Assembly: GCA_963965975.1 (NCBI GenBank) | Contig: OZ014411.1 | Span: 24,783,249 to 24,847,248 of the forward strand | Length of the DNA stretch: 64,000 bases | Origin: Xestospongia bergquistia | Lineage: Eukaryota; Porifera; Demospongiae; Haplosclerida; Petrosiidae | Direction: 5' to 3' | Shown here: positions 15,942-60,561 of the stretch, piece by piece | Layout: each line of letters opens with the position of its first letter | How positions within the stretch are numbered: the stretch's first letter is position 1 | Program-made: the position numbers and the translations under genes | Notes under the pieces: generated by a model | The model's input: the letters and a program-made list of their open reading frames with translations, nothing else | Database searches by the model: none | What the model was told of the DNA's origin: nothing

Positions 15942-17623
15942 TTAAAATATTTCACTATATTCCTCTTCTTTTATCTCTTCTTTTCTATTTAATGTCCTTT
16001 CCCAGTACTCCTCTATAATGACACGCTCATTAATTGTTGATGATTCATCTCTTTGTCTTTGTCTATACTGCCATGACACAAAACAATATAGTAGCAAGGA
16101 AAGTAATACTATTAAAATCTTAATAGTGTAATACAACCAGTCATGACCCAATTCACTACTTAAGGCAATGGTTAATGATACATATTTTATACTCAATAGA
16201 CTATATAATATTCCAATTAATAGACCTTGCATATGATAAGGTGCCTGTGCAATGACGAATTCAAAAATAGTTAAGAACAAAACACCAGATATTCCATTAA
16301 GAATTTGAGGCAGAATTAACAACTCATATGGTAAAGGCTGTTCTATTTCAAAAAATACACAGAATATGACCTGCAATAGTGAAGAAATACTGGATAAAAA
16401 GAGACTTAGACCAATACGCTTCAGCATTTTTGGTAACTTGTGAGAACAAAATGGAAAAATTACAAATTGAAGACACAGTATACCAACAACAATAATTAAA
16501 ACACTTATTGAGTTAGGGAAAACTAACACTATGCTTTCCATTAAATTAAAAGTGACTTTAGTATCATTTGTATCAATTGTCATATTGAATAATTTAATAT
16601 ACTCACGAGCTATTCCTGCTGTAGACTCATTGAAGTGATAACCAACTAAAGACAACAAGATAGTAAAATGTTTTTAAAACTCCTCACATCTTCTACTTGA
16701 TCAGTTGTAAATGGTCCTCCATATCTCTCTTTAGCTCGGTCTAACATTGCTGGAGGAGCTTCTCCATAAGTGAAAGCACTACGTTGTAAAGGTCTCTTGT
16801 ATTTAACAGCATATTTGAAGATGTTATAAATCTGTTTGGCAGGATTAACTGTAGGTGGTGGCTCAATTACAATATGTCGTTTTATAAAACAAAGCGTAAG
16901 AAGACCAGCTACAGTTGTTAGTGTTGCAAATATGTATACGACTAATATTATTATTGTTATGTGGACTGACTGTCCTAAAGTTATCATCATTATCAAAATG
17001 AGAGCACTAAAAAATGATGGTAGAAAAATTGTAAGTTTCTGCCAATAAATATAATGTCTTAATTGAATTGATGAAGCAAACAGTAATTGGTCAGTACCCA
17101 ATTGAATAATGTTTGATTGAAACAAAGCAAATCCAAAGTAAATAGGCAAATTAAAAGCATAGCGTAATAAAAGTGGTGTGATATCACTATTACTATGATA
17201 ATAAATGTTAACAAGAGATCTGATAAAAGTTATTAATGCAGTACCAATTGCTATAAGAATAGTTCCAGCAAGCACAACTCGATATCTAATGAACCTATCA
17301 CCAAGAAAGGCCAGAAATGGATAGAGAAGAAAATAACAATATATTGGTGCAGTTTTAATATCTGCGTCCTTGGTATAAAAAGTATTAAATATCATCGTGT
17401 TAGATATGGATATAGGTATGTACATCAAAAAACTAAGTGTTAATATCAAATAACTACCTTTAGAAAGAGTAAAAGTCTTGTCACAGTAATTCCTGAATCT
17501 TTGCATTCTCGTTGGTCTACGAACTGAACTGATGTCTAGTGATAAATTGCTTTCAGTGTCATCTTCACAAGATGAGAAACTGGAAGGTCTACGACTAGAC
17601 GTAAATGGTAAAGAAATTGCCAT
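15942..17623 (-). pseudogene. POT/SLC15-like transporter, copy 2, frameshifted
   Basis: Two overlapping frames make one family protein. The N-terminal part (ATG 17623, MAISLPF, through VEDVRSFKNILL) is followed in another frame by LSLVGYHFNESTAG… and the complete tail to 15942. Compared with copies 1 and 3 (gataagtaaaatg), this copy reads gatagtaaaatg at about 16659-16670, a one-base loss in TM7. Otherwise the frame and all TM segments are intact, so the lesion is young or an error in the sequence. Its 5' half is nearly identical to copy 5 (35115-36596). Confidence 0.8.
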
Positions 17624-18439
17624 CTTCAAAGTTTAATTGTGGGGTGAGCCCCACAATCGTCGGGTAATATATAAACAACAGAGCTAGCTGTGGGCTGAAC
17701 CATGAACTATAAAAAACCACACCTTTACAATGAAAATTATTATTTCTACAGTAGAACCCTCTTTCGTATTTTTTTCACTTCAAATTTCACACAACATTCT
17801 ACCATACCTTACTGAAGTACATAAGGAGTACCTAAAAACTTAGAATATAACTTACTGTTATCATAGTTTATAGCCAATCAATGAACAATCTTTCAAATAT
17901 TCAGACATTTAATATGGGAAGCAGAATCAGTTCTACAAGCGTTTTTTTTATTCCTAACTAACTATAGATACATGTCATTAAAAAAGACACACTGTATAGC
18001 AATACATTTAACAGCTAACAGATCATTCCAGTCTTAAACATGCAGGCTAAAATTTTGGCTGGCTACTTATATAGGGATTTTTGTATGGATTTGTGTATTC
18101 ATCCCTACATTGTTTCTTTCTTCTGGCATATCATCGCAACATCTTTACTACCTTTTTTTTAAAATCATAATAATTACATGTTCAATTTTGGGGGAGCCCT
18201 AATTATAAACTCATCAGGAGATATCTAAAACCTTGACCATTTACTGGACTGATCTCTGGACTGGACCATGGACTACAAATTTAAAAATAGATCTTTATAT
18301 AGAGATTATTATATCTACATTATTATTACTAGTTTATTATCCATGCTGCAGACATGTGTGACAGTAGAACAACTTTTAAAGGTTTAACTGAAAGCAACCA
18401 AGAATGTGCATCCAAATGTGCATCAAGTTTTGACTATAC
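17624..18439. repeat. Upstream flank of copy 2, duplicated at 36597-37390
   Basis: No gene. The stretch is almost the same as the upstream flank of copy 5. Near 18190-18270 it contains an orphan, diverged copy of the transporter 5'-proximal block (GGGGGAGCCCTAA … ACTCATCAGGAGATATCT) with no ORF behind it. Confidence 0.65.
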
Positions 18440-21354: not shown

Positions 21355-22860
21355 GTTTTCAGTGCACCTTGTGTAGATAACTGTAATTGTCTACAAATGA
21401 CCACAGCATCTAATGTATTTCAACCAACGTACACCAGTAACATGTCCCCATAAGCCATCATGACATACTTCAACTGTACCCTCAGAGTTAGTACTACCAC
21501 CAACTAATCTAAGTTGATCTTCAACACAATCTGAATGAGAATTGATATTTTAATAAAGATTTTAGCTCAGATTAAGTTTCAGTTAATTGTAAACCAATTT
21601 AACAAATAAGTAAGTCAATGTACTGACATGAATAACTGAAAACAAACATACCATTCTTTTTACATTAATTCTTCTGTAATATATTATTGCCTTTAGTTAT
21701 ACCATCTGTACAAAGGACACCAGCTATATTAGTGTTAGAACATATGAAATGTCGATAGGAAGATTTACTACATTCACTAAAACTCCTTTGCCATCCTTGA
21801 CAATTTAAATTAGAATAGACAATTGCACCATCTCCACTACCATATTTGGCATTTGTTGTTATATCGGGCTCCATTAGAAATAAGAACTTAAACAGAGTTA
21901 TACAATTGAAATTAATTTGAGTTTGTGTAATCAAGTTGTTTGTATCCAATAAAACATCTGTTTTATTCCAACCAGTACCACATATAGTACCCCAAACACC
22001 GTTGACACAAATCACAGTAAAAATTGATTAGTTGATTTAACTAACACATCATTTATACAAGTTGCATGTGCAAAAAAATAACATAATACTATTTATTACT
22101 AATGTATTATGAAATTGATGATTATGTAACTTACATAAACAGTAGTGTATTAGTAATGAAAATAGTATTATGTTTACTTTTTGACAAAAATAAGTTTGCA
22201 TTTGCAACCTGTATAACCCAAATAATAGTTAAATCAACCAATCAGTGATATACCTCAACTCATTCTTCTTAACTAATACAATCATTGACAAGACAGACTT
22301 TACCATCAACACAGCATTTTGCAACAAGAAAATAAAATTACCTTTGACCAACACAATTATGAAGGCAAATCTTTACAACTTTCTTTTGCCAACTTTCAAG
22401 TGGTTTAGCATATTAATTATATACACAGACACATACATGTATATACATAATATGAATGGTACTGTGATTATTTGATGAGCATAATAGGGTATGCTACTGT
22501 CATAATATAGTAGGTTTTGCCACATCTACTAAAACCAAATTGTATGCTATGTTACATAACAAAGCTGTTAAAGTATGCACTCCCTTATGCTCCACATAGA
22601 GAAATGTATACTTACCATCATGTTGGTATGTCGTTATCATAAATTTCATTCATAACGAAAGGAATGATTATAACAGTCAAAGTGAGTTGTAATTTAATTC
22701 AGTATATAACCAATCATTTATGTTTGAGGATCATCTTACCATAACATCTTATAGCATATGGAGCTGTACAACTAGTAGCACAGCTACTATTACTGATTGA
22801 AGAAATACTACAGCTACTTAATGAAGATTCAGTAGCATAATAACTGCAAGAAAAATAATA
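21355..22860 (-). pseudogene. Degenerate SRCR-domain gene (exon remnants)
   Basis: Several minus-strand SRCR pieces are recognisable. At 22843-22740 there is an exon bounded by gcag/GTAAG encoding YYATESSLSSCSISSISNSS and CTAPYAIRCY. At 22015-21665 a piece reads ICVNGVWGTICGTGW … CQGWQRSFSECSKS … AGVLC, with an internal stretch lacking the expected Cys/VVCRQLG core. At about 21535-21400 a piece reads QLRLVGGSTNSEGTVEVCHD then loses the pattern. SRCR domains are extracellular ligand-binding modules. The exon phases do not match each other and the central motif is missing, so I call it a pseudogene, though a divergent receptor remains possible. Confidence 0.6.
22025..22244. mobile_element. Foldback/MITE-like element, ~90-bp inverted arms
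   Basis: The left arm begins TGATTAGTTGATTTAACTA and the right arm ends AGTTAAATCAACCAATCA. Inner parts also pair (ACATAATACTAT against ATAGTATTATGT, and ATTACTAAT on both sides). The arms are imperfect over about 90 bp. It sits beside the SRCR exon, in what would be an intron. No clear target duplication. Confidence 0.65.
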
Positions 22861-23178: not shown

Positions 23179-24866
23179 TTAATACATTTCAATATATTCC
23201 ACTTCTTTTATCTCTTCTTTTCTATTTAATGTCCTTTCCCAGTACTCCTCTATAATGACACGCTCATTAATTGTTGATGATTCATCTCTTTGTCTTTGTC
23301 TATACTGCCATGACACAAAACAATATAGTAGCAAGGAAAGTAATACTATTAAACTCTTAATAGTATAATACAACCAGTTGTGACCCAATTCACTATTTAA
23401 GGCAATAGTTAATGATACATATTTTATACTCAATAGACTATATAATATTCCAATTAATAGACCTTGCATATGATAAGGTGCCTGTGCAATGATGAATTCA
23501 TAAATAGTTAAGAACAAAAAACCAGATATTCCATTAAGAAATTGAGGCAGAATTAAAAACTCATATGGTAAAGGCTGTTCTATTTCCAAAAATACACAGA
23601 ATATGACCTGCAATAGTGAAGAAATACTGGATAAAAAGAGACCTAGACCAATACGCTTCAGTATTTTTGGTAACTTGTGAGAACAAAATGGAAAATTACA
23701 AATTGAAGACACAGTATACCAACAACAATAATCAAAACACTTATTGAGGTAGGGAAAACTAACAATATGCTTTCCATTAAATTAAAAGTGACTTTAGTAT
23801 CATTTGTATCAATTGTCATATTGAATAATTTAATATACTCACGAGCTGTTCCTGCTGTAGAGTCATTGAAGTGATAACCAAATAAAGACAACAAGATAAG
23901 TAAAATGTTTTTAAAACTCCTCACATCTTCCACTTGATCAGTTGTAAATGGTCCTCCATATCTCTCTTTAGCTCGGTCTAACATTCCTGGAGGAGCTTCT
24001 CCATAAGTGAAAGCACTACGTTGTAAAGGTCTCTTGTGTTTAATAGCATATTTGAAGATGTTATAAATCTGTTTGGCAGGATTAACTGTAGGTGGTGGCT
24101 CAATTATAATACGTCGTTTTATAAAACAAAGCATCAGAGAACCAGCTACAGTTGTTAGTGTCACAAAAATGTATATAACAATTGCTATTTTTGTTATATG
24201 GATTAAAAATTCTGACTGTCCTAAAGTTATCATCATTATCAAGATGAGAGCACTAAAAAATGATGGTAGATAAATTGTAAGGTTCTGCCAATAAATATAA
24301 TGTCTTAATTGATTTGATGAAGCAAACAGTAATTGGTCAGTACCAAGTTGAATAATGTTTGATTGAAACAAAGCAAATCCAAAGTAAACAGGCAAATTAA
24401 AAACATAGCTTAAAAGTAGTGTAATATCACTATTACTATGATAATAAAAGTTAACAAGAAGTCCGATAAAAATTAATATTACCATACCAATTGCTATAAG
24501 AATAGTTCCAGCAAGCACTACTCGATATCGAATGAACCTATCACCAAGAAGAGCCAGAAATGGAAAGAGAAGAAAATAACAAGATATTGGTGTATTTCTA
24601 ATATCTTCAGCCACAATATAAAGAGTATTAAACCTCGTGATGATAGACATGGATATAAATATGAACATCAAAAAACTAAGTGTTAATATCAAATAACTAC
24701 CTTTAGAAAGAGTAAAAGTCTTGTCACAGTAATTCCTGAATCTTTGCGTTGTCGTTGGTCTACGAGCTGAACTGATGTCTAGTGATAAATTACTTTCAGT
24801 GTCTTCTTCACGAGATGAGAAACTGGAAGGTCTATAACCAGACATAAGTGGTGAAGAATTCGCCAT
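23179..24866 (-). pseudogene. POT/SLC15-like transporter, copy 3, frameshifted
   Basis: The ATG is at 24866 (MANSSPLMSG). The N-terminal frame runs through TM8 to CLQFVIF, then the C-terminal frame resumes at FPFCSHKLPK and runs to 23179 with the full WQYRQRQRDE tail. The break is a one-base contraction of an A5 run to A4 (ggaaaaatt to ggaaaatt) at about 23692. Homopolymer slips are a common sequencing error, so the gene may be intact in the animal. The conserved loop FTYGEAPPGMLDRAKERYGG is unchanged. Confidence 0.8.
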
Positions 24867-25440
24867 CTTCAATAATCAATTTTGGATGAGCCCAACACTC
24901 GTCGGGGAATATCAAAAACGTGTACTGAACTGGATCGTGGGCTGGACTATATATCAACTACAAAGAAATCACACAATGAAGGTTATTATTTCTACAGATT
25001 ATATGTTGCAAACACGTGGTCACGGCTGACAGTAGAACCTTCTTTCGTATTTTTTTCACTTCAAATTTCACACAACATTCTACCATATCTTACTGAAGTA
25101 CACAAGGAGTACCTAAAGTTACTTACTGTTGTTATAGTTTATAAGCTTTTGTTATTTTAATCAACAAACATGAAACATCTTATGATGGTTAATAATTAAT
25201 AAACATATCAATAAATTGTATGAACAGTTTAGTCAAATATATTGGGATGATTTAAAAACATCTTTTAAGAACGATGACATTTTATTAAGGTGTGGTTCCA
25301 TAATCATGAGAGAGTCCAGTCCATGGTCCACATTTTACCATGTATTCTTTGATGTTTCACATATTGTCATATTGATGACAATTGGACAATCACTTTCATA
25401 AGCAATTATCATTGACCTATTTACAGTGACAGAAGAGTTA

Positions 25441-28319: not shown

Positions 28320-28437
28320 AGCCATTCGTGTTCTCAACTCGACTCAGTCCAGTCCAGACTGTCCAGTCCAGTCCACGGTCCGGGTTTTAGAAATATCCCG
28401 ACGAGTGTGTGGCTCATCCAGCCATTGAATATTACAG
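28320..28437 (+). promoter_or_regulatory. 5'-proximal region of the intact transporter
   Basis: Contains repeated CCAGTCCAG words (about 28345-28380) and the family block AATATCCCGACGAGTGTGTG followed by GCTCATCC, ending just before the ATG. The block is conserved upstream of all five copies; its function is inferred. Confidence 0.4.
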
Positions 28438-30111
28438 ATGGCTAATTCTTTACCACTTACGTCTGGTTATAGAACTTTCAGTTACTTAACTCATGAAGAT
28501 GACACTGAAAGCAATTTATCACTAGACATCAGTCCAGCTCGTACACCAACGAGAATGCAAAGATTCAGGACTTATTGTGAGAAGACTTTTACTTTTTCTA
28601 AAGGTTGTTATTTGATTTTAACACTCACTTTTTTGATGTTTGTATCCATATCCGTATTTAACACGACATTGATATTTAATACTCTTTATACTGATGATAC
28701 AGATACTAAAAATGACCCAACATATTGTTTTTTTCTTCTCTATCCATTTCTGGCTCTTCTTGGTGATAGGTTCATTCGATATCGAGTAGTGCTTATTGGA
28801 ACTTTTCTTATAGCAATTGGTACTGCAATAATTACTATTATTTGGCCTTTCGTTTATAATCATAATAGTGGTATCACACTACTTTATTATGCTTCTAGTT
28901 TGCCTTTTTACTTTGGATTTGCTTTGTTTCAATCTAACATTATTCAATTGGGTACTGACCAATTGCTGTTTGCTTCATCAATTCAATTAAGATATTATAT
29001 TTATTGGTATAACCTTATAACTTGTCTACCATCATTTTTTAATATTCTCATTTTGATAGTGATGATAATGATCAGTTGGACAGATGATTTTACAACACTA
29101 ATAACATTAGTTCTATACATTGTTGCAATACTATCAAATGTAGCTGGATTTCTTTTGCTTTGTTTTATAAAACGACATATTGTAATTGAGCCACCACCTA
29201 CAGTTAATCCTACCAAACAGATTTATAACATCTTCAAATATGCTATTAAATACAAGAGACCTTTACAACGTAGTGCTTTCACTTATGGAGAAGCTCCTCC
29301 AGGAATGTTAGACCAAGCTAAAGAGAGATATGGAGGACCATTTACAACTGATCAAGTGGAAGATGTGAGGAGTTTTAAAAACATTTTACTTATCTTGTTG
29401 TCTTTAGTTGGTTATTACTTCAATGAGTCTACAGCAGGAATAGCTCGTGAGTATGTTGAATTATTCAATATGACAATTGATACAAATACTACTAAGATCA
29501 GTCTTAATTTAATGGAAAGTATAGTGTTACTTTTCCCTACCTCAATAAGTGTTTTGATTATTGTTGTTGGTATAATGTGTCTTCAATTTGTAATTTTTCC
29601 ACTTTGTTCTCACAAGTTACCAAAAATGCTGAAGCGTATTGGTCTAGGTCTCTTTTTATCCAGTATTTCTTCACTATTGCAGGTCATATTCTGTGTATTT
29701 TTTGAAATAGAACAGCCTTTACCATATGAGTTGTTAATTCTACCTCAAAGTCTTAATGGAATATCTAGTTTTTTGTTCTTAACTATTTATGAATTCATCA
29801 TTGCACAGGCACCTTATCATATGCAAGGTCTATTAATTGGAATATTATATAGTCAATTAAGTATAAAATATGCATCATTAACTATTGCCTTAAATAGTGA
29901 ATTGGGTCACAATTGGTTGTATTACACTATTAAGAGTTTAATAGTATTACTTTTATTTCTACTATATTGTTTTGTGTCATGGCAGTATAGACAAAGACAA
30001 AGAGATGAATCATCAACAATTAATGAGCGTGTCATTATAGAAGAGTACTGGGAAAGGGCATTAAATAGGAAAAAAGAGATACAACAAGAGGAATATAATG
30101 AAATATATTGA
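28438..30111 (+). CDS. POT/SLC15-like 12-TM transporter, intact copy
   Basis: The only undamaged member of the local family: 557 aa, single exon. Predicted role is proton-coupled import of small peptides or related solutes across a membrane; the substrate is unknown. After a charged N-terminus (residues 1-45) come about six TMs (for example YLILTLTFLMFV, CFFLLYPFLALL, FYFGFALFQSNIIQLGTDQ). A cytoplasmic loop (about 245-310) with SAFTYGEAPPGMLDQAKERY and GGPFTTDQVEDVRSF leads to six more TMs and a basic tail (WQYRQRQRDESSTINERVII). The ExxER proton-coupling motif of bacterial POTs is not visible in TM1, so the mechanism may differ. The start is supported by the same MANSLPL opening in paralogues. 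It lies in opposite orientation to the other copies. Confidence 0.82.
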   Translation: MANSLPLTSGYRTFSYLTHEDDTESNLSLDISPARTPTRMQRFRTYCEKTFTFSKGCYLILTLTFLMFVSISVFNTTLIFNTLYTDDTDTKNDPTYCFFLLYPFLALLGDRFIRYRVVLIGTFLIAIGTAIITIIWPFVYNHNSGITLLYYASSLPFYFGFALFQSNIIQLGTDQLLFASSIQLRYYIYWYNLITCLPSFFNILILIVMIMISWTDDFTTLITLVLYIVAILSNVAGFLLLCFIKRHIVIEPPPTVNPTKQIYNIFKYAIKYKRPLQRSAFTYGEAPPGMLDQAKERYGGPFTTDQVEDVRSFKNILLILLSLVGYYFNESTAGIAREYVELFNMTIDTNTTKISLNLMESIVLLFPTSISVLIIVVGIMCLQFVIFPLCSHKLPKMLKRIGLGLFLSSISSLLQVIFCVFFEIEQPLPYELLILPQSLNGISSFLFLTIYEFIIAQAPYHMQGLLIGILYSQLSIKYASLTIALNSELGHNWLYYTIKSLIVLLLFLLYCFVSWQYRQRQRDESSTINERVIIEEYWERALNRKKEIQQEEYNEIY

Positions 30112-32509: not shown

Positions 32510-33982
32510 ATCCAAATAGATACAATTAAGAAAAAGGAAAGAATGGCAGTAAGTTCACTAAAAATGTAATAAGTATGAAGATAGTTGTGATCAACAATGT
32601 TAGGACTGTCTAATAATGTTATTGAGCACCTAAGAAGAGGAGCTACCAGCAAAAAAGCAAAAAAAGCTTATATATTATATATTATAGTGATATTGAAATG
32701 GGAGAGTTAAAACAATCTGCATGAACATATTGAAATGTCTCTTCTTATTTCCCAAAATTGTATAAGGATAAAAGTGATTTTAGATTTAAAAACATTTTTT
32801 TAGAATTATATATCTATAGTACTTTTGCTTATACTACTTACCAATAATTCATTACATTATAGAATTTTACAAACAGTTAGAAGTTACTTCTCCAGAAGAT
32901 TCTTACATAAAACTTTATCCAACACTAAGAGCTGGTCATGGCTGTATTAAAGAAGACAGTCTGTGACAATCTTTCAAGGAAATGTATTCCAATGTTTAAA
33001 TTGTAATATTACATGTTCATATCAGTAGGTTTGAGAAAGAGTCATTAAGTGACAAAAAATAGATTCTGAAGATTCCTGAATCAATTTCTCTTCCATTACA
33101 ACCTAAAATACAGGTTTGAAGATATTATAATTATTATTTCTTTAAAGTTTCTCAATTGATCTTTTGTTCTTATCTTTAATGTACATAAGTATGGTCTATT
33201 AATTTAAAAAAACGCTTATCACTAAAAACTAATACTCACACTTAAATAGTAATTTTATAAGAAAAGAAATTGCTCCTTAATTTTTAGTAATTTTTTACAT
33301 TTTTTTATTTTTTTATTTTTTAGTACATCTTAAGTGAAGCATTTTTGTATAGTTTTTAATTAATGTTAATTACTAAGAATTTTCTGAAGAGAGGAAAAGC
33401 TAGTATGTGGTATGGTATGTAAGCAATCTAAATTAATTATATCAGTAATTAAATTTTTGCTTATTGAGGGCACTAACTTAATAAGCATAAAATTATGATT
33501 TACAGTCAACAACCCAAGAAACTTCTTCTCAAAAAAAGTGTCAGTACATTTCTTTCTTGGCCTTCAAAAAAGACAAAATTGTGTTCAAATGGTGCACTGC
33601 ATACTCATACTATAGCTGTTATGTAAGTCGATTACAGATTTTCTTATAATCATGCCCATTTAAAATTAAATTTTCACTTTCTTCTTCTATATTGTAATTA
33701 GACTTGTCAATAAGGACACTAAATCAACCTTTATTTATATTTTTTAACAAAGACATGAATTGTTGTTCATGTTTCATTAAAAATATTTTCAAAATAACAA
33801 TTACTTGTAATAAAGTCTATATGTTTCTATTTAATTTGTTATATAGGTCTGACAGAGTTAGGCAGTGGAAAGTATTTTATCATGACAACAACTATGGACT
33901 TAACATTCCTTCTCTTCATAACTCACTTGAGGATTTGATACAAGACCATTCTGTCTACCCTTTAGTTCAGATGTTAGACTAG
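32510..33982 (+). pseudogene. Decayed paralogue of the death-domain/SH2 gene (3' half)
   Basis: Ordered, same-strand matches to exons 3-end and 4 to 11 of the gene at 40.4-46.65 kb. Exon 4-like about 32690-32755 (has an internal TGA). Exon 5-like about 32872-32990. Proline exon-like about 33045-33115 (TAG inside). SH2 exon 9-like 33378-33410 (TAG inside). SH2 exon 10-like 33508-33625 (the FLxR position now reads FLSWPS, losing the phosphotyrosine Arg). SH2 exon 11-like 33847-33982 with a truncated end. The large intron 3 of the intact gene is absent: about 32650-32690 joins its two ends directly. The death domain is missing. Confidence 0.85.
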
Positions 33983-34290
33983 TCTTTCCAATTAATATTA
34001 TGTGTACAATTATAATTTTAATGTGAAATGTTTAATTAACCTTATACATCATGACCAGTTTAATAAGTAGTCATATAAAGTAACTCACCCAATAGTCTTT
34101 AATAATCATTCAGATAGGAGAAAAGTACACTGAAACAAAATGAAAACAAACTGATTTTGTCATCACAATATTAGGACTATAAGACATAAATATATTTGTA
34201 AAGAAACATTGGTTGAGATACACTTCAGGAAACTCTTATTGGTAGTAGTAAAAATTGCCCATTCCATACTAGTATTTTCCTAATTATTAG
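33983..34290. other. 3' flank of the decayed SH2 paralogue
   Basis: Matches 46651-46760 (cattaattaa type tail, …catgaccagtttaataagtag…), showing that the duplication reached past the gene end. Confidence 0.6.
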
Positions 34291-35131
34291 TCTCCTATAT
34301 TTTAACAACATATACTAAACAGCCATGCACTCTATAATTCTCAAACGTAAATGAGAGCACAAGTGGGACATATGTCAATCCATGAGCTAAGATATTAACT
34401 TCTCATCCTAGGTTACCATTAATTTCCTGTGACATACCTAATAATTAAGGTTATGGCTCAGTTTAGTTAGGACTTGTATTTTTGTTAGACCACCTCAATA
34501 CAATTGAGGATTGATTGCTGCATTGATAACACCAACTTGAAATAGTAAAAGCTACTGCGTATGTAAATTCAAAACAAATTGATTGCAGTAGTGCTAAGTT
34601 TTCTTTTTGATGTTAATAAAGTCCTTGATATATTACTGTATGATAACTATTATATTAGCAACCATAGAGACTTTATTGTATGGATTTGTATTCACCTTCC
34701 ATGTCCACAATACTCAAAAATTAAAAAAAGTTATAACATTTGTTTATTTTTAGGGAAGTATTATAAGTCTACTACATACATATTCAACAGCCATGCACTC
34801 TATAAGAAACAATAGTAAATAAGAACACAAGTGAGACAGATGTCAATCCAAGAGGTAAGAAGTTAGTATCTCATCAAAGTTAATGATGACCTTAACTATT
34901 TATTGAAATAAGGTTATAGTTCAGTTTAGTTAGTTTTAGTGCTATTGTCATACCAGCTCAGTGCAATTCAATTGCAAGGTAACTATGCCAAGTTCACATA
35001 GTAAAAGGAATTGCATATGTAAATTCTTCATTGGATGAGTGTGAAATTTGGTTTTTAATGTTAATACAGTGTTGATAATGTGTAACAATAACTTGTAATT
35101 CAACAGATTAAAGTTTAATTCAGGTTATACA
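34291..35131 (+). repeat. R-family repeat, two units, abutting a transporter
   Basis: Two ~0.46-kb units. Each contains TATAGTTCAGTTTAGTTAG-like, AGTAAAAG…ATGTAAATTC and TTCCATGTCCACA words also found at 46.8-49.1 and 50.97-52.8 kb. The last unit is cut at CAGGTTATA (about 35131), exactly where homology to the transporter coding region of copy 5 begins. Confidence 0.75.
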
Positions 35132-36596
35132 ATTCACTATTTAAGGCAATGGTTGCCGATGCATACTTTATACTCAATTGACTGTATAATATTCCAATTA
35201 ATAGACCTTGCATATGATAAGGTGCCTGTGCAATGAGGAGTTCATAAATAATTAAAAATAAGAAATAAGAAATCCTATTAAGGATTTGAGGCAGAATTAA
35301 CAACTCATACGGTAAAGGCTGTTCTATTTCCAAAAATACACAGAATATGACCTGCAATAGTGAAGAAATACTGGATAAAAAGATACCTAGACCAATACAC
35401 TTCAGCATTTTTGGTAACTTGTGAGAACAAAAAGGAAAAATTACAAATTGAAGACACAGTACACCAACAACAATAATTGAAACACTTATTGAGGTAGGGA
35501 AAACTAACACTATGCTTTCCATTAAATTAAGACTGATCTTAGTAGCATTTGTATCAATTGTCATATTGAATAATTTAATATACTCATGAGCTATTCCTGC
35601 TGTAGACTCATTGAAGTTATAACCAACTAAAGACAACAAGATAAGTAAAATGTTTTTAAAACTCCTCACGTCTTCCACTTGATCAGTTGTAAATGGTCCT
35701 CCATATCTCTCTTTAACTCGGTCTAACATTCCTGGAGGAGCTTCTCCATAAGTGAAAGCACTGCGTTGTAAAGGTCTCTTGTATTTAATAGCATATTTGA
35801 AGATGTTATAAATCTGTTTAGCAGCATTAACTGTAGGTGATGGCTCAATTACAATATGTCGTTTTATAAAACAAAGCATAAGAAGACCATTTACAGTTGT
35901 TAATATTGCAAAGATGAATAGAACTAATGTTATTATTGTTATATGGACTGACTGTCCGAAAGTTATCATCATTATTAAAATTAGAATACTAAAAAATGAT
36001 GGTAGATAAATTGTAAAGTTCTGACAATAAATGTAATATCTTAATTGAATTGATGAAGCAAACAGTAATTGGTCAGTACCAAGTTGAATAATGTTTGATT
36101 CAAACAAAGCCAATCCAAAGTAAACAGGCAAATTAAAAACATAGCGTGATATAAGTAGTGTGATATTACTATTACTATGATTATAAACAAAAGACAAGAT
36201 AAAAACAATTGCAGTACCAATTGCTATAAGAATAGTTCCAGCAAGCACAACTCGATATCGAATGAACCTATCACCAAGAAAGGCCAGAAATGGATAGAGA
36301 AGAAAATAACAATATATTGGTGCAGTTCTAATATCTGCATCCTTGGTATAAAAAGTATTAAATATCATCGTGTTAGATATGGATATAGGTATGTACATCA
36401 AAAAACTAAGTGTTAATATCAAATAACTACCTTTAGAAAGAGTAAAAGTCTTGTCACAGTAATTCCTGAATCTTTGCATTCTCGTTGGTCTACGAACTGA
36501 ACTGATGTCTAGTGATAAATTGCTTTCAGTGTCATCTTCACAAGATGAGAAACTGGAAGGTCTACGACTAGACGTAAATGGTAAAGAAATTGCCAT
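35115..36596 (-). pseudogene. POT/SLC15-like transporter, copy 5, 3'-truncated
   Basis: The 493-aa open frame from ATG 36596 (MAISLPFTSS) contains TM1 to TM11 and the conserved loop (SAFTYGEAPPGMLDRVKERY). The family sequence ends at ALNSEL; the last codons (YNLN) come from the joined R-repeat DNA. TM12 and the basic tail are lost. The first ~115 residues are almost identical to copy 2, while the KISLNLMES region resembles copies 1 and 4, so it is a mosaic. It may make a truncated protein, but loss of function is more likely. Confidence 0.75.
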
Positions 36597-37500
36597 CTTC
36601 TAAGTTTAATTGTGGGGTGAGCCCCACAATCGTCGGGTAATATATAAACAACAGAGGTAGCTGTGGACTGAACCATGAACTATAAAAAACCACACCTTTA
36701 CAATGAAAATTATTATTTCTACAGTAGAACCCTTTCGTATTTTTTTCACTTCAAATTTCACACAACATTCTACCATACCTTACTGAAGTACATAAGGAGT
36801 ACCTAAAAACTTAGAATATAACTTACTGTTATCATATTTTATAGCCAATCAATGAACAATCTTTCAAATATTCAGACATTCAATATGGGAAGCAGAATTA
36901 GTTCTACAAGCGTTTTTTTTTATTCCTAACTAACTATAGATACATGTCATTTAAAAAGACACACTGTATAGCAATACATTTAACAGCTAACAGATCATTC
37001 CAGTCACATGCAGGCTAAAATTTTGGCTGGCTACTTATATAAGGATTTTTGTATGGATTTGTGTATTCATCCCTACTTTGTTTCTTTCTTCTGGCATATC
37101 ATCGCAACATCTTTACTACTTTTTTAAAATCATAATAATTACATGTTCAATTTTGGGGGAGCCCTAAACTCATCAGGAGATACCTAAAACCTTGACCATT
37201 TACTGGACTGATCTCTGGACTGGACCATGGACTACAAATTTAAAAATAGATCTTTATATAGAGATTATTATATCTACATTATTATTACTAGTTTATTATC
37301 CATGCTGCAGACATGTGTGCATGACAGTAGAACAACTTTTAAAGGTTTAACTGAAAGCAACCAAGAAAACATCCAAATGTACATCCAGTTTTGACTATAT
37401 ATATAAATATGCTGTACTTTTTCATTGATATGATATATATATATAAAGCATGCACACAGGATAGTATAATAATTATAACTATAATTACACCTTTGCTTTG
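36597..37500. repeat. Upstream flank of copy 5, duplicate of 17624-18440
   Basis: Nearly the same as the upstream flank of copy 2, including an orphan 5' block at about 37150-37240. The two diverge at about 37390, where this copy has about 1 kb more. Confidence 0.7.
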
Positions 37501-40378: not shown

Positions 40379-43300
40379 ATGGCTGATTCTGTACTACTAC
40401 AAGCTAATAAAGGTAGTAAATATCAATATATTTATTCATTCTATATTACAAATATTGGTCGAAGTAATCTATTTAATGTTAATTTTTTAATATTCACAGA
40501 TACTACTCAGCCAATTTGTGAAGAAAGGCTGGAGGAAAAATGCCAAGACAATTTGTTTGTTGCTCTAAGTACTCGTATCACTCATTTTGATAAGATAGCA
40601 TTTCATTTAGAGTTAACGCAGGCTGATATTGAGCAGATTAGACGAGACAAAGATCGTGAACAAGCACGAATATTAGCTGTCTTGTGGAAGTGGAGAGCAA
40701 GACGTGGAAATTATGCCACATACTCAGCTTTATTGACTGCTTTTATGGAAATGGATGACCGTGAAGTGGCTGAATTCATTGAGGAATATGTCAGAAAATG
40801 TAGTGGACCATTATCATCAACAAAAATGCCATTTACACCAGAGAAAACGGAAGAGAAATTTCTCAATTGGGAAAAGTTGACAGATAATGAAAGAGAACGT
40901 ATTAAGAATGAGCTTCAAGAAGAAAATAATTTAGTACGTGAGAAATTTGCTTGCCTTTTTATTGATATACTCAACTCATTTGAACAAAAACAAGTGCAAT
41001 ACATGAAACTTAAGATATTTTTGCAGTTGTCCCTTAGAATTTACTCACATAAAGTCATCTTTCCTGACCTTGAAGCAGCTGAAAGCCTGATGAATGTATT
41101 TAGCTTTCTTAGTAATCACTGTTCCTGGTACAATTTTGAGGTTCTTGAGAGTGTTGTCAAGAAATTCGGAAGCATTGATGACGAGAGATTACTTTCTGTC
41201 TATATTGAAGGCATCCTTAAGCCATATCTTGAAAGATCCATTTTTGAAATTCCACCAGATTCTTTAGGTGCTAACTGTGACCCTGCTACTCTACAACGAG
41301 TTTACTTAAAACTACCAGATGACCTGGTTCCTTCTGGTTGTGATATTAAACTGATACAGACTAAGTTAGCAAAACGAATGGGTATACCCACATCAATCCT
41401 ACAACTTCAGTCATATTGTACTGGATGTATTGAACTTGAATTTATTATTGAAAGAGTATACTTGACTGATCTTCCTGATGACATTCCATTTTTTATAGAT
41501 ACTATTTGGGATGATAACAAGCAAGTTTATTTTATCAATGCAGACATTTTGACAATTTTGTGAGTATTGGAAATAATAATAATTATTACTAAACAGCACT
41601 AACACTTTTTAATTAAATAATGATAACATCATGTCTAAAATAAGATCTATGTATTTTTACAAACTAGTTCTTAATGGTGTCTTCCCTATATATAGGTTTT
41701 TTGATCACAATGTAAAAGGAGAATTGTCTGTTGTTCATAAACTACTTAATGTGAAGAAAACAAAAATTGATGATTACAATGAAGAAAAAGGAAAGCATTA
41801 CAGTAAGTTCACTAAAACTATAATACCTATGAAGATAGTTCTGATCAACACTGTTAATACTGTCTGGTAATGCTGTTGAGCACCTATAGAGGGAGAGCTA
41901 CCAGAAAAAAGATAAAAAGCTTTGTAACTGACGACATACCTTAAAGTATTTGTGTTCAAAGATTACAAAAGTCTATCTTGTAAGATATAGAGTTTTAGCA
42001 ATGATGTTATCTTGATTATGGTTAGTCTACCTAAACCTCTCAAAATTTATCAACCTAATACATTGTAAGGATTAATATGTTACTAATTTGTAGCTTGCAT
42101 TGGTGGAACATTATGGAATTCAAAATTCTTGTGAATTGCTCACAATATAACTTGTTACTTTTGTAATAGTATACTATACCAGCAAACTAACCAAACTTTA
42201 CCAACAAAGGAGTTTGTCTCTTACAAAATGTTTAGAAACTTTATTATCTATGCTATATATGCTTACAAATGATAACGTTAAGCATGTGTTGTCTAATGCC
42301 AGTATGACTGACTCCTTAATTAGTACAAGCAATTTGTATAAATTACACTAAGTGGATGATCACTATATAATTATAGTAAAGTTATATAAACAACTAATGT
42401 CTCAACATCCATGCTAAACTTTTGTGTAAAGGCTGTTATTACAGAATTTATGATAGGACAACTCTAAATACCACTTCTTTGTTCAGTTACATAAATTGTA
42501 CAATTCAAAATGAAAAAAGTACACGTGTCATTGATTATTTTTCAATGTATTGTATAAGGTGATGTATGCAACCAATAACAATGCATTTTGTATGAAATTA
42601 TTAATGCTAATTTCACCTCTATATATTTCCCTCTTAAATATACTGTAAACATGTGTACACCATGCACAATTAGCTAAAAAATTGGTAAGTTTAGGGCTTA
42701 CCATAAGCTACAGCAATTTAATGGGTGTGTCTATAAGTTTATGTATTATTCTAATTACAATAAACCATGACTTGATAATGAATAAAAATTAAAAGATAGC
42801 TGTAACTAAGTGTATTGAGATGACCTTCAACTCTCCATAGAATGCTAAAACAATTAATGAGTCTGTCTATTTGATGTAAAGATCCACTGTAAATAGTGGT
42901 ATGTCATTTTTACATATCAATTTGTTGTTCCAGGTTCACGTTACTTATTGGTTATATGGTAATAAATAAGATACCTAAACAGATCTACAATGTATATATA
43001 CATATAATGGTTAAATCATCATAATTAGTTCATTACTTGTCTAGACTAATGACTCTAATTGTTTATAATACTGTAAGGTTTAGCATCCATATATGACATG
43101 GATTCTAATTAAATTCACTTCCATATGGCTATATAATAGATAGTTAATGTATGCTAGTACATTAACTATATAAGCATTATATCTGATGGTGCTCCTACTT
43201 GCATATAGCTAGTTTTAGTATGTCACATATCTCTACTAAATCCATGTTTCAGTAAATTTAAGCAGCTATTACACAATACCAGGAGCACATGATGAAAAGC

Positions 43301-43726
43301 GTAAGAGAGTAGTTGTTGAATTGCCCCATGATTCATTCCCACTGTACTGGAAATACTATATTTAGACATCAAATGACAATCCTGGGAATGAAAATGGGGA
43401 GGCATACTGCTTGCTGCTAGTTTAAATTTACATCCAACTTTGCTTTTTAGAAAGGTCTCCTAGGTTAGCAGCATGAGTTCTATCACATATTACACCAGAT
43501 CATTGCATGGTCATCAAGAGTTGTAATCATCAACACAGACGAGGTTATAATACAGTTTATTTTCAGCTTAAGTCTCTTCTTTTGTACTAGAAGAGTACTT
43601 CTTTTGTGTATATTACAGTATTTGTTATGTCAATATTTAGCAAAGCAATTTATTTTTATTATACATGAACAAAATGTTGACTGTTAAGAAAATTAAATTA
43701 TTAATAATTGAAAATAGTAAGTGTAG

Positions 43727-43788
<62 letters not shown>

Positions 43789-46650
43789 CAATGTACATAT
43801 ATGTCAGCCTTTCATACAACATTTTTGCAGATTTGCTTACCTAGCCATGATTGGAATGTAACCAAACAATCTCTATTATCTAGGAGATTCACACTTCTTC
43901 ACATTTACCATTTCATCATGTGTTCCTGACAGTTATGGGGCAGTGTTTGTGTCAAAATTAAGCAATTTATACAAAAATTAATTAATTATGTTAAGGATTT
44001 ATAAATCCTACAATAAATATGATAAATGCTAACAGAGATTTGTAAATACATGTGGAACTTTATAAATAATGTTAGAAATTTGTAAAACTGTCACAAATTT
44101 TTTAAAAAAGGATGTATTAATACTGTCAAGATAACAATAAGCAATGCTAATAATTTATTAATTCTGCAATTATTTTTAAATAGACCTTAGAATTTTAAAA
44201 TACTTCTGAGAATTTATAAATATTGTTAGCAACTTATAAATACTGTAATTAATTTTAAATACACCTAGGAAATTATACTGTTATCTTGATAGTATTGATA
44301 AAATCCTTGAGTTGTTATAAATATGGATTAATAAATATAGTACTGTTTGTAACTTTTCCAAGAGGGTTAAAAATACTTGAGGGTGCTCTCATCTATGTAG
44401 TCATTCTGTCTATCACTCCTTAACTATAGAATCTATAAAATACTAGCATTGTTTATATTGTTATCTTGATAGTATTAATAAATCCTTGAGTTGTTATAAA
44501 TTCCTGAGAGTCTTTATAAACCTCTAATATTATTTATAAATTCCTGCATGTATTTATAAATCTCTTAGGATTATTATATTTATTGTAGAATTTATAAATC
44601 CTTACACGTAATTATATATGTATAATTTATTTTGATTTGGACATAAACAGTGCCCCATATGACAGTAGCATATAAGGAGTCATTATCATGTATGAAACTC
44701 ACATAACAAAATCATATGTTATAGTGGAATTGATTATAATTCTTGTACTATACTTAATTTCACTGCAAGGAATATACATATCATATATATCTACTTCTAG
44801 TTAGGTTTCCATTACGTTTATGTTGTTTAACTTCAATATTTTAATTTGAATTATATTATCTCAATTAGAATAATCTTGATATTGCACTAAATTATATTTC
44901 AGGTCAAATTACAACATCATCTTGCCTACATGATATTGAAATGGAACACTTAATACAATCTGTTGAAGATATTGAAATGTCTTCACCTATTTCCCAAAAT
45001 GGTATGGAAACAAAAGTAACTTTTAGGTTAAAAATATTTCTTTTAGAATTATAATATTCTTTGCTTATACTATTTATCATTAATTCACTATAATCTAGAA
45101 TTTTACAAACAGTTAGAAGTTACTTCTCTCGAAGATTCTTATGTAACACTTTATCCACCGCTCATAGCTGATCATAGTTGTATTAAGGAAGACAGTGACA
45201 AACCTTTACAGAAAAGGTCATTCCCACATACATATATTTCAATATTAAAATTGTAATATTACATGTCCAGCTTAATCCTTTATGAAACTGATGATTCTCT
45301 TTGTTGGTCTTAAAGCAACTTCAATGTTGTTTCTTTACTCTATATAGCATATTTGGCACTATTAAGAATGCAGAAACATCCGCAGATGGAGAGTACGATT
45401 ATCCTTTAGGAATGGCTGGATTTATTAAGTATGTTCTTATCTGTTTTCTATCAAATGTCAATTTATGATTATATTTTATCACATAATTTTACATCTTATT
45501 ATCATCTAAGTGTTATTGTTTAATCTGCATGTCTGTAGATCCGAAAAGGAGCCGTTAAGTGACAAAAAACAGAAGATGCCAGAATCAATTCCTCCTCCAT
45601 TACCACCTAAAATACAGGTTTGGATATATTATAATTATTAATCCTTTTGAATTTGATATTTGCTCTTATCTCTGATGTACAAAAGGTTTTTAGTAATGAA
45701 AAAAAAGAGAAGATGCCAGAATCAATTCTTCCTCCATTACCACCTAAAATACAGGTTTGGATATACTATAATTATTAATCCTTTAAGGTTTGATTTTTTG
45801 CTCTTACCTCTGATGTACAGAAGATTCTTAGTATGGTCATTAAAAATCTATAAATTTAATAAAATACTTGGCTTATCATAAATTCCTCCTTAAATTTTAT
45901 AGTAATTTTTACATTTTTTTAATTCTTTATTTTGTAATACATCTTACGTCAAGCATGTTTGTATAGTCTTTAAGTAATAATGTGTTAATTATTAGGAATT
46001 TTCTGAAGAGAGAAGAAAGTGGTATGTGGATTGTACTAGGTATGTAAGTAATGCATTTTAATTATATCAGTAAATTAACTTCTAATTATTGAGGGCACTA
46101 AGTATGAATTTATGATTTACAGTCAACAAGCCGAAAAACTCATTCGCAAGAAAAGGGCTGGTACATTTCTTTGTCGGCCTTCAGAAAAGACAAAGATGTG
46201 TTCAAATGGTGCATTGCATACTCATACCATAGTTGTTATGTAAGTTAATTAGTTACATATTTCCTTGTAATCATGCAGTTTTAAAATTTAATTTTAGTTT
46301 CTTCTTTTATATCGTTATTAAACTTCTCAATAAGGACATTAATCCAACCTTTATACATATATTTTTTAACAAAGACATGAATTGTTGTTCATGTTTCATT
46401 AAAAATATTTAACTACATTCTCTAAATAACAATTCCTTTTTACAAGGTCACTATGTTTCTATTTAATTTGTTATATAGGTCTGACAGAGTTAGGCAGTGG
46501 AAAGTATTTTATCATGACAACAAGTATGGACTTAACATTCCTTGTCTTCATAACTCACTTGAAGATTTGATACAATACCATGTTATCTATCCTTTAGTTC
46601 CTGATGGAACATCAGATGTTAAACTAGTTTTTCCAATTAACATTGTGTGA
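40379..46650 (+). CDS. Death-domain/SH2 fusion adapter (11 exons, 659 aa, predicted)
   Basis: Exons by GT-AG and phase: 40379-40412, 40500-41559, 41696-41802, 44903-45001, 45099-45216, 45348-45428, 45539-45617, 45686-45754, 45996-46039, 46123-46239, 46479-46650; the total of 1980 nt closes in frame. Residues ~20-111 form a death domain (LEEKCQDNLFVAL … QIRRDKDREQARILAVLWKW … EFIEEYVRK). About 190-364 is a helix-rich region (WYNFEVLESVVKKFGSIDDE … YIEGILKPYL) that I recall from sponge death-domain proteins only. About 510-549 holds two proline-rich PPPLPPKIQ/LPPLPPKIQ exons. About 555-655 is an SH2 domain (GTFLCRPS with R582 at the phosphotyrosine position, RQWKVFYHDNKYGLNIP, SLEDLIQYH), closest in pattern to the C-terminal SH2 of PI3K p85. 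A TGA at 41561 would end a shorter death-domain form, but it overlaps a GTGAGT donor. It would couple tyrosine phosphorylation to death-fold assembly (inference). Confidence 0.78.
43730..43782. repeat. (AT)n microsatellite
   Basis: About 50 bases of uninterrupted AT dinucleotide. The ORF on the minus strand through it (Ile-Tyr repeats) is an artefact. Confidence 0.95.
43934..44659. mobile_element. Non-autonomous TIR element, 7-bp target duplication
   Basis: Flanked by TGACAGT (43927-43933 and 44660-44666). The ends TATGGGGCAGTGTTTGTGTC and (reverse complement) TATGGGGCACTGTTTATGTC form TIRs. The 726-bp interior is built of irregular TTATAAAT-centred repeats and two copies of a GTTATCTTGATAGTATT-type unit (about 44280 and 44460), with an inverted one near 44125. 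No ORF. The superfamily is unassigned. Confidence 0.75.
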
Positions 46651-49702: not shown

Positions 49703-50559
49703 ATGATTTTTAAAATTTTCTTCATCATTCTAATGTTAGTACAGCTTATACAATGTGCCGAAGGTATGATTGTAAATAATAAAATTTATGTGTATTTTAT
49801 ATTTCAGAGTCTTCAAACAAGGCTATGTTTTCTCCAGTAAAACGAAATGCACATGACTCTAATACTACTGACTTTTCTCTAAAACATCCTTATTTACAAA
49901 TCTTACGAGGTCGAGATGGACGTGATGGCTTACCTGGGAGAGATGGTGTGAAAGGAGACAAAGGTGATAAAGGAGACAAAGGAGATCGTGGTAAACAAGG
50001 ACCACCTGGACCAAAAAATGGTGGTATAGTCTACACACGATGGGGTAGAAAGTCTTGTCCTAATAACACAGGAGCACAGCTACTTTATGAAGGAATAGCT
50101 GGTGGTAGTCATTACACTCACAGTGGTGGAGGTGCTAATTATATCTGTTTGCCTAAAGTTCCTGATTACTTGAGTACTGCAGATCCACCAGCAGAGTCCT
50201 ATTTGTATGGAGCTGAATATGAACAAGTAAACAACATATTTCCTTCTAAACATGATCATAATGTTCCTTGTGCTGTATGTTATACTTCTACTAAAGTTGT
50301 TCAACTAATGATACCAGCTAAAACTGCCTGTCCTACATCATGGACTTTAGAATATAAAGGTTACCTCATGACTAGCTATTATGATCATAAGAGGAATGCT
50401 GTATATGAGTGTGTTGATAAAGATGCTGAGTCTATTTATGGTAGTTCTGGCAACATCAATGGTGCTCTGTTCTATTTTGTTCAAGGAACTTGTACTGGTC
50501 TACCATGTCCTCCCTATGTCAATAATAGGGTTATTACTTGTGTTGTATGTACTAAATAA
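49703..50559 (+). CDS. Short-chain collagen C4-like secreted protein, copy A (2 exons)
   Basis: Exon 1 (49703-49763) encodes a signal peptide (MIFKIFFIILMLVQLIQCAE). The 44-nt GT-AG intron 49764-49807 joins in frame to exon 2 (49808-50559) for 270 aa. About residues 55-92 are some 12 Gly-X-Y triplets (GRDGRDGLPGRDGVKGDKGD … GPPGPK). Then follows a Cys-rich C-terminal domain with YTRWGRKSCPNNTG, GGSHYTHSGGGANYICLPK and DHNVPCAVCY, as in the sponge short-chain collagen C4 (spongin-type) family. The product is likely an extracellular trimer-forming matrix or filament protein. An upstream in-frame ATG at 49619 would bury the signal peptide, so I prefer 49703. The gene lies in a tandem segmental duplication with copy B. 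Confidence 0.88.
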
Positions 50560-53470: not shown

Positions 53471-54250
53471 GAACTTTCAAATTGACGTATTTAAATTTGT
53501 GTGGTGCATTGAAGATATATTAATTATAATTATTGAGATTTATAATAGTGAATATAAGATTGACTATATAATATACAATATAATATAATATACAATATAG
53601 GTGAGTGTGGTATATTGTGTTTGTGCTATTGCTACCATACATTTATATTTATTTATAATTTCAACCATTGTCCTACATTTATCAATCCATCTTAAATGTT
53701 ATTGTACTATAGTTTAGATAGGACAGTAGCCAGGTTAGCTCAGTATAATATAAGATATTCTGTAGACCTTCCATATTTAATATCATGTTAGCTCAGACAA
53801 GTATATATTTGAGTCAAACATTTGCTCCTAATATCAATACAAGTTTCAATAAATTACTTTAAAAGAGAAAGTTTAGTTTACTTATTTATTACAAGATAAC
53901 TCAGTATCTACACAATGACTAGCAAATCATTGTATTTACTGCATGTATAAGTACAGAGTCTTGTTTAGTAATATTAATTTAATATTTTATTTGTTAAATC
54001 AACTTACCAATCACAAGGTTGCAAAATCTAGACTAGTTAGTATTTTCAAAATTAATTTTTAGATATTATAAAATGACTTTATAAAATAGTATTAGCTATT
54101 CAGTTCATTCATTATATCAGTACAAATGTTAGTTCATTCATTATATTAGTACAAAGGTCAGTACAACTTATGATAACTCAGCACAAGGTGAGATGATAAT
54201 ATAATCATTCACACAATGTGGTGAAGGGATGATTGTAAATAATAAAATTT
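53471..54250. other. Upstream region of collagen copy B
   Basis: 53570-53600 has ATATAATATACAAT repeats. From 53835 it matches the region upstream of copy A, up to about 54205, where the signal-peptide exon should start but is deleted. Confidence 0.6.
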
Positions 54251-54270
54251 ATGTGTATTTTATATTTCAG

Positions 54271-55019
54271 AGTCTTCAAACAAGGCTGTGTTTTCTCCAG
54301 TAAAACGAAATGCACATGACTCTAATACTACTGACTTTCCTCTAAAACATCCTTATCTACAAATCTTACAAGGTCGAGATGGACGTGATGGCTTACCTGG
54401 GAGAGATGGTGATAAAGGAGACAAAGGTGATAAAGGAGACAAAGGAGATCGTGGTAAACAAGGACCACCTGGACCAAAAAATGGTGGTGTAGTCTACACA
54501 CGATGGGGTAGAAAGTCTTGTCCTAATAACACAGGAGTACAGCTACTTTATGAAGGAATAGCTGGTGGTAGTCATTACACTCACAGTGGTGGAGGTGCTA
54601 ATTATATCTGTCTACCTAAAGTTCCTGATTACATTAGTACTGCCAATCCAGCAACACAGTCCTATTTGTATGGAGCTGAATATCAAGAGGCATGCATATT
54701 TCCTTCTAAACATGATCATAATGTTCCTTGTGCTGTATGTTATACTTCTACTAAAGTTGTTCAACTTATGATACCAGCTATAACTGTCTGTCCTACATCA
54801 TGGACTATAGAATATGTGGGTTACCTTATGGCTGAACATTACACTCATAAGAGGAGTGCTATATATAAGTGTGTTGATAAAGATGTTAAGTCTATTTATG
54901 GTAGTTCTGGCAATATTGACGGTGCTCTGTTCTATTTTGTCAAAGGAACTTGTACTGGTCTACCATGTCCTCCCTATGTCAATAATAGGGTTATTACTTG
55001 TGTTGTATGTACTAAATAA
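54271..55019 (+). pseudogene. Short-chain collagen C4-like, copy B, lacking signal exon
   Basis: The main exon is open from the acceptor (…atttcag at 54270) to the TAA at 55019, about 90% or more like copy A. It keeps Gly-X-Y repeats (GRDGRDGLPGRDGDKGDKGD) and the Cys-rich domain (YTRWGRKSCPNNTG). Upstream, about 130 bp including nearly all of the signal-peptide exon is gone (…ataatcattcacacaatgtgg…). The splice donor reads GG instead of GT (aagggatg against aaggtatg), and the internal Met of copy A is Val (gtg). As it stands there is no start codon or secretion signal. It is either a pseudogene or uses an unseen new first exon. Confidence 0.75.

Positions 55020-57428: not shown

Positions 57429-60561
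<3,133 letters not shown>

Follow-up and report, generated by a model that had tools for sequence, protein, structure and literature searches.

Does the region from 40379 to 46650 of this stretch of Xestospongia bergquistia DNA encode one protein that joins a death domain to an SH2 domain of the phosphoinositide 3-kinase (PI3K) p85 type, and where did its two halves come from? The stretch, 64,000 nucleotides of contig OZ014411.1 (positions 24,783,249 to 24,847,248, forward strand), is called here the window. We consider it probable that the region is a single multi-exon gene for an intracellular adaptor, in which a Death/TRADD-N module is combined with a p85 SH2 whose docking would seed assembly. 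The model has 11 exons on the forward strand, with AG acceptors and GT donors throughout and compatible phases, the exact boundaries having been read in the window. The spliced product is a single open frame of 659 amino acids closed in exon 11 by the TGA at 46648-46650, which bears out the original prediction that 11 exons are joined in consistent phase. The features of the model are the following.

40379..40412, + strand: exon 1, start codon, 11 amino acids and one base
40500..41559, + strand: exon 2, Death domain, helical bundle and TRADD-N-like domain
40586..40789, + strand: Death domain, residues 41-108 (Pfam; Foldseek and VIA matches to RAIDD, FADD and RIPK1)
40883..41230, + strand: helical region, exon-2 residues 128-243
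41291..41536, + strand: TRADD-N-like alpha/beta domain with GC motif, exon-2 residues 264-345 (fold model and profile comparison)
41560..41565, + strand: exon-2 donor GTGAGT, with an internal TGA at which the frame would close without splicing
41696..41802, + strand: exon 3, short and helix-prone, homologous to exon 3 of the paralogs, exit in phase 1
41803..44902, + strand: intron 3, 3.1 kb, containing a TA run and dispersed repeats (about 42881-43257 and 43933-44662)
44903..45001, + strand: exon 4
45099..45216, + strand: exon 5, weak donor GTCATT
45348..45428, + strand: exon 6
45539..45617, + strand: exon 7, PPPLPPK motif
45686..45754, + strand: exon 8, tandem duplicate of exon 7, LPPLPPK
45996..46039, + strand: exon 9, start of SH2 (WYVDC)
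46123..46239, + strand: exon 10, SH2, FLCRPS including Arg582
46479..46650, + strand: exon 11, end of SH2 and stop

The predicted protein would thus present, in order, a Death domain, a helical (perhaps DED-like) bundle, a TRADD-N-like domain, a short helical linker, two PPLPPK motifs and a C-terminal SH2. The death domain proposed beforehand was recovered by the Pfam profile search (38.6 bits, E 1.2e-9, residues 41-108, over the curated cut-off), and both the Death profile and the six-helix fold of the death domain superfamily were found. The AlphaFold2 model of exon 2 has a mean predicted local distance difference test (pLDDT) score of 84.8. In it, residues 128-243 form the helical region, which is perhaps DED-like, and the TRADD-N-like region follows the succession strand-helix-strand-strand-short helix-strand-strand. 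The GC motif (a tiny residue plus S or C between beta2 and beta3) is flanked in the model by strands 301-306 and 311-317; it reads GC in the window and GC or GS across 26 aligned rows of the family.

The identity of this alpha/beta domain as TRADD-N is likely, by a transitive assignment from sequence profiles. In a profile-profile comparison, residues 130-320 matched the P0004 family with 99.3% in hhalign, and three of five further members of that family match PF20694 below threshold (E 0.0039, 0.02 and 0.12) at the corresponding place by coordinates; the other two do not, and P0004 itself gives no match at E 10. Within the family of the window protein, PF20694 was found in 1 of 26 and 1 of 43 members, below threshold as well (E 0.15 and 0.14), and not in the window protein. 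No match to PF20694 or PF13820 was obtained in the genome at E 0.01, the PF13820 search being empty in the control genomes too. There was no TRADD-N chain among the structure matches listed, which the tool itself warns is not evidence of absence; the high-E Foldseek matches 8yt8_O (dystrophin glycoprotein complex), 5iwb_A (PPR with MORF protein) and 2re1_B (aspartokinase) were not counted. The stretch behind the death domain had been described beforehand as a helix-rich region. This stands for the helical bundle, but the region is probably not an anonymous linker and holds a TRADD-N-like domain too, because in the proteins described in PMC8195603 the TRADD-N comes after Death-like domains. A further protein, P0075, combines the same helical and TRADD-N-like region as exon 2 with a protein kinase domain (PF00069, PF07714) behind it.

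At the other end of the product, the p85-like SH2 with its phosphotyrosine Arg, as proposed in the original prediction, was found by three routes. Pfam reports SH2 with 26.2 bits (cut-off 21) and E 8.6e-6 at residues 558-637, covering positions 1-77 of the 77 of the profile; the closest PDB relatives are PI3K p85alpha chains (E 1.9e-9), in an alignment that begins at residue 528 and includes the proline segment; and R582, within FLCRPS, is exactly the betaB5 Arg of the phosphotyrosine pocket. The pocket positions betaB5, betaD4 and alphaA2 are those of the SH2 literature, where the betaD4 His is not universal. Placed by eye, only one of the three usual basic residues of the pocket is kept, the betaB5 Arg, and alphaA2 is Gln both in the window SH2 and in the p85-like gene of the host.

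The origin of these exons could be traced in the genome. At E <= 0.001, the only non-local matches of the window SH2 are p85-like exons, on C5 (2.7e-5) and C2 (6.6e-5), each located 2-4 kb from a second SH2 exon. Read by eye, the C5 gene has the order SH2, coil, proline linkers and SH2, which is that of p85. Two intron positions are shared with this gene, both in phase 2: one in the second codon past WYVDC (WYVEC in the C5 gene) and the other in the third codon past HTHTI. Because the nearest relatives in the genome are p85-like and two intron positions and phases are shared, the SH2 exons are, on these sequence comparisons, derived from a p85 gene, namely from its C-terminal SH2. The window protein therefore resembles p85 in its C-terminal SH2, the preceding WYV exon, the two intron positions and phases, and the proline-rich segment before the SH2. 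In contrast to p85, it has no nSH2 or iSH2 that we could find and no SH3 or BH domain called by Pfam; in the 659-amino acid product, neither Pfam nor the PDB alignment gave a match to a second SH2 or an iSH2. Judged from its sequence, it is not a PI3K subunit or p110 partner of known kind.

The segment that precedes the SH2 agrees with the proline-rich exons of the original prediction, since exons 7 and 8 carry PPPLPPK and LPPLPPK. These are motifs of the SH3-ligand type. The two exons arose by a tandem duplication (45560-45833, + strand) with 95% DNA identity and an extra 30-base fragment at 45804, and skipping of exon 8 is frame-neutral.

Exons 1-3 belong to a large family. The genome searched comprised 146 Mb in 21 contigs, with 354 residues of exon 2 as the query, and gave 109 rows at E <= 0.001, partial ones included (Death part only or middle part only). 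Full-length relatives are mostly 27-36% identical; the paralog L010 (C1:6776987) reaches 45%, and a locus on C2 that appears as two separate rows has identities of 48% and 47%. No exon-2 relatives were confirmed in viral_contigs or in genome_contigs (the bacterial and archaeal set). By eye, the acceptor of exon 2 has the form ag|AT in 16 of 18 loci, the window counted; in one of the 16, L033 (C1:25530652), the start of exon 2 is shifted in frame against what follows, which sets this copy apart from its neighbours. The donor of exon 2 reads GTAAGT, GTGAGT or GTAGGT in all 31 rows of the alignment, and its bases 2-4 are an in-frame stop. These rows correspond to 30 distinct places including the window (29 paralog places), given that L032 and L046 are one place, and L045 and L047 had been removed beforehand as repeats of L010 and L011. 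As the TGA at 41561 lies within this conserved donor, a frame end there, the case that the original prediction had named as its own refutation, is very unlikely and was rejected, and the junction 41559/41696 is well supported.

The conservation extends into exon 3. Using a general pattern, a homologue of exon 3 was found downstream in 18 of 29 rows, the window and L010 being set aside since their alternatives in the pattern had been written from their own sequences and both matches were discounted. Six of the 11 misses (L013, L015, L019, L020, L026 and L034) show exon 3 by eye. A somewhat broader pattern recovered exon 3 in 19 paralog rows. In 15 of these, as in the window, the exon is left at a donor-like site in phase 1; among the other four, L011 has only a phase-0 site and three have no donor-like site. 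We thus rejected a single fixed exit phase for the whole family: judging from these rows, a phase-1 exit from exon 3 is common, not universal. Exon 1 is the less secure part. P0001 and P0002, open reading frames (ORFs) on short contigs that are 95% and 87% identical to exon 2, read through exon 1 and intron 1 in frame, which makes the exon-1 donor less certain than any other site in exons 1-3; it may not be kept in P0002, as the residue at the donor differs there.

The critical junction is that between exons 3 and 4. The donor of exon 3 is GTAAGT and the acceptor of exon 4 is in the matching phase, and among the ORFs of the window no other coding exon was noticed in intron 3. From the splice sites and the phase, the joining of exons 1-3 to exons 4-11 across 41802/44903 is plausible and the likeliest reading. 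Furthermore, exons taken from the 3' part of a p85 gene would come without a start, which seems to favour their being read from a gene that lies upstream. The repeats of intron 3 occur elsewhere in the genome; that at 43933-44662 has self-complementary copies and is present on several contigs.

The window contains a second, damaged version of most of the gene:

32521..34023, + strand: decayed partial copy, from the end of exon 3 to exon 11, with stops and indels

In this copy, the equivalent of Arg582 is Trp, exon 6 and the start and acceptor of exon 4 were not found, and most of intron 3 is absent. The short distance between exons 3 and 4 is best read as a deletion, because the exon 4 start and acceptor are missing, and for the same reason the idea of a short ancestral intron 3 was withdrawn. 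Substitutions between the window gene and the copy number 53, 52 and 57 by codon position, a sum over exons aligned for more than 60% of their length that includes exon 3, of which only the end is alike; they give no codon-position signal. Overall, exon identity is no higher than intron identity. As one of the copies is decayed, this comparison is uninformative as a test of selection.

Several observations weigh against a single functional gene. The presence of exons 3 and 4 in one mRNA across 41802/44903 is a prediction, and intron 3 is long (3.1 kb). In the genome search, exons 4-7 had no relatives outside the window, and a p85 linker was rejected as the source of exons 4-6, which are no more like it than shuffles are (alignment score 38, shuffle maximum 49, mean 27). 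The donor of exon 5 is weak, exon 3 of L010, the paralog with the highest score, closes with a stop (this copy has, additionally, a TGA within exon 2), the betaD4 His is replaced by Trp (RQWKV, compared with KHLKV in the C5 p85-like gene), and selection on exons 4-11 was not seen in the comparison with the upstream copy. In a search for orthologues of the whole fusion, the 659-amino acid query gave four protein matches, none over more than 55% of its length.

Part of these data would be accommodated by two adjacent genes: one of the Death/TRADD-N type, terminating in exon 3 or shortly beyond it, and one for a p85-derived SH2 fragment that begins in exon 4, with an ATG at about 44942. The repeat-containing gap of 3.1 kb, the isolation of exons 4-7 and the termination of L010, from which a Death/TRADD-N protein without a C-terminal domain can apparently occur, are what this arrangement would lead one to expect, and an unspliced exon 3 would reach a stop about 22 codons beyond the donor. 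Nevertheless, we regard it as unlikely: exon 3 of the window has a GTAAGT donor in the phase common to 15 of the 19 paralog rows, it is met by an exon 4 acceptor in the matching phase, and SH2 exons coming from the 3' end of a gene would require a new promoter and a new start. It is very improbable, in turn, that the locus or its SH2 half is decaying without a functional fusion protein, as has happened to the copy at 32.5-34 kb. That copy lies within the same window, some members of the exon-2 family have stops, the copy comparison gives no signal of selection and the betaD4 His is lost, but 659 codons are free of stops with intact splice sites, and P0001 and P0002 keep exon 2 open at their high identity.

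A different function for the same product was also considered. The SH2 domains of p85 prefer pYxxM, and a protein with an SH2 derived from the p85 C-terminal SH2, and with no second SH2 or iSH2 match, might occupy pYxxM docking sites and block the recruitment of PI3K, its Death part being incidental. However, the pYxxM preference of the window SH2 is presumed by analogy, and the Death/TRADD-N half is conserved in the near relatives P0001 and P0002; we find this competitor role quite improbable.

Returning to the single adaptor gene, its origin may be reconstructed as follows: exons 1-3, from the large shuffled Death/TRADD-N family, would have gained the p85 3' exons after exon 3. Besides a single transcript and a TRADD-N identity for the exon-2 domain, we infer phosphotyrosine binding, oligomerisation and binding partners for the product. 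The SH2 would dock the protein onto a tyrosine-phosphorylated receptor or scaffold; clustering at the docking site would raise the local concentration of Death domains and seed their homotypic assembly, and the TRADD-N-like face and the proline motifs could bring in partners of the TRAF or SH3 type. It is fair to infer, with the original prediction, that the protein would convert tyrosine phosphorylation directly into death-fold assembly. A more specific proposal, that the capture of p85 SH2 exons turned a Death/TRADD-N scaffold into a direct switch from phosphotyrosine to death fold, in which former PI3K docking sites seed assembly and separate adaptors are bypassed, is tentative and we consider it doubtful.

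None of the death adaptors FADD, RAIDD, RIPK1 and TRADD is known to have an SH2. The original prediction went further and knew of no established animal adapter with this order, a view that does not hold in the light of the published sponge proteins. According to PMC8195603 (eLife 2021;10:e70394), Amphimedon has 357 TRADD-N proteins of the NCOA6 clade, and most architectural types consist of one to three Death-like domains, a TRADD-N and a C-terminus that varies. The commonest C-termini there are ankyrin repeats, or SH3 with leucine-rich repeats (LRRs), and kinase, MATH, SH2, PDZ, caspase and others are also reported; the same text describes the TRADD-N fold with a motif of a small residue plus S (sometimes C), and expansions in further animals too. 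Family members with SH3 and LRRs would be possible partners of the proline motifs. The window protein resembles this Amphimedon expansion in its N-terminal Death-like domain, its TRADD-N-like domain with the motif, its many copies and its variable C-terminus. It differs in that Pfam calls no TRADD-N in it. Many copies with differing C-termini were indeed found here, as among the 109 rows the window has SH2 and L047 helicase-like exons. In L047 (C3:3859000-3866000), exons 2 and 3 are homologous to those of the window (exon 2 is 34% identical), whereas SF1-helicase-like exons (PF13086 AAA_11), apparently twice over, take the place of the SH2.

The locus looks like a real shuffled adaptor gene of a mix-and-match family already published in sponges, SH2 versions included; because the arrangement belongs to this published class, its novelty is modest. 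Of the 150 best Death exons in this genome, only that of the window lies within 30 kb of a detected SH2 exon. The window SH2 had been added by hand since the Pfam scan misses an SH2 split over exons, and for that reason further split cases could be missed. Similarly, none of 50 places of the exon-2 family is within 40 kb of any of the 81 SH2 exons detected by Pfam. The gene offers a clean example of how a sponge immune-type adaptor is assembled, with a shared Death/TRADD-N exon of conserved borders and a C-terminal domain traceable to a donor gene that can be named, the intron positions having been preserved. If the single transcript is confirmed, the gene would connect receptor tyrosine phosphorylation to the assembly of death folds, in a way open to testing, in an animal of an early-branching lineage.

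Elsewhere in the window, repeated copies of a family of membrane-protein-like ORFs are located at 1315-2814, 15945-17632, 23182-24875 and 35118-36599 on the reverse strand and at 28429-30108 on the forward strand. Some of the copies are in two frames, and for that at 28429-30108 Pfam gave nothing at E 0.01. A tandem duplication of about 4.46 kb holds two collagen-like ORFs that are very similar to each other (49783-50556 and 54246-55016, both on the forward strand). Finally, the ORFs at 21668-22027 and 58734-59198, on the reverse strand, have by eye the look of scavenger-receptor cysteine-rich domains.

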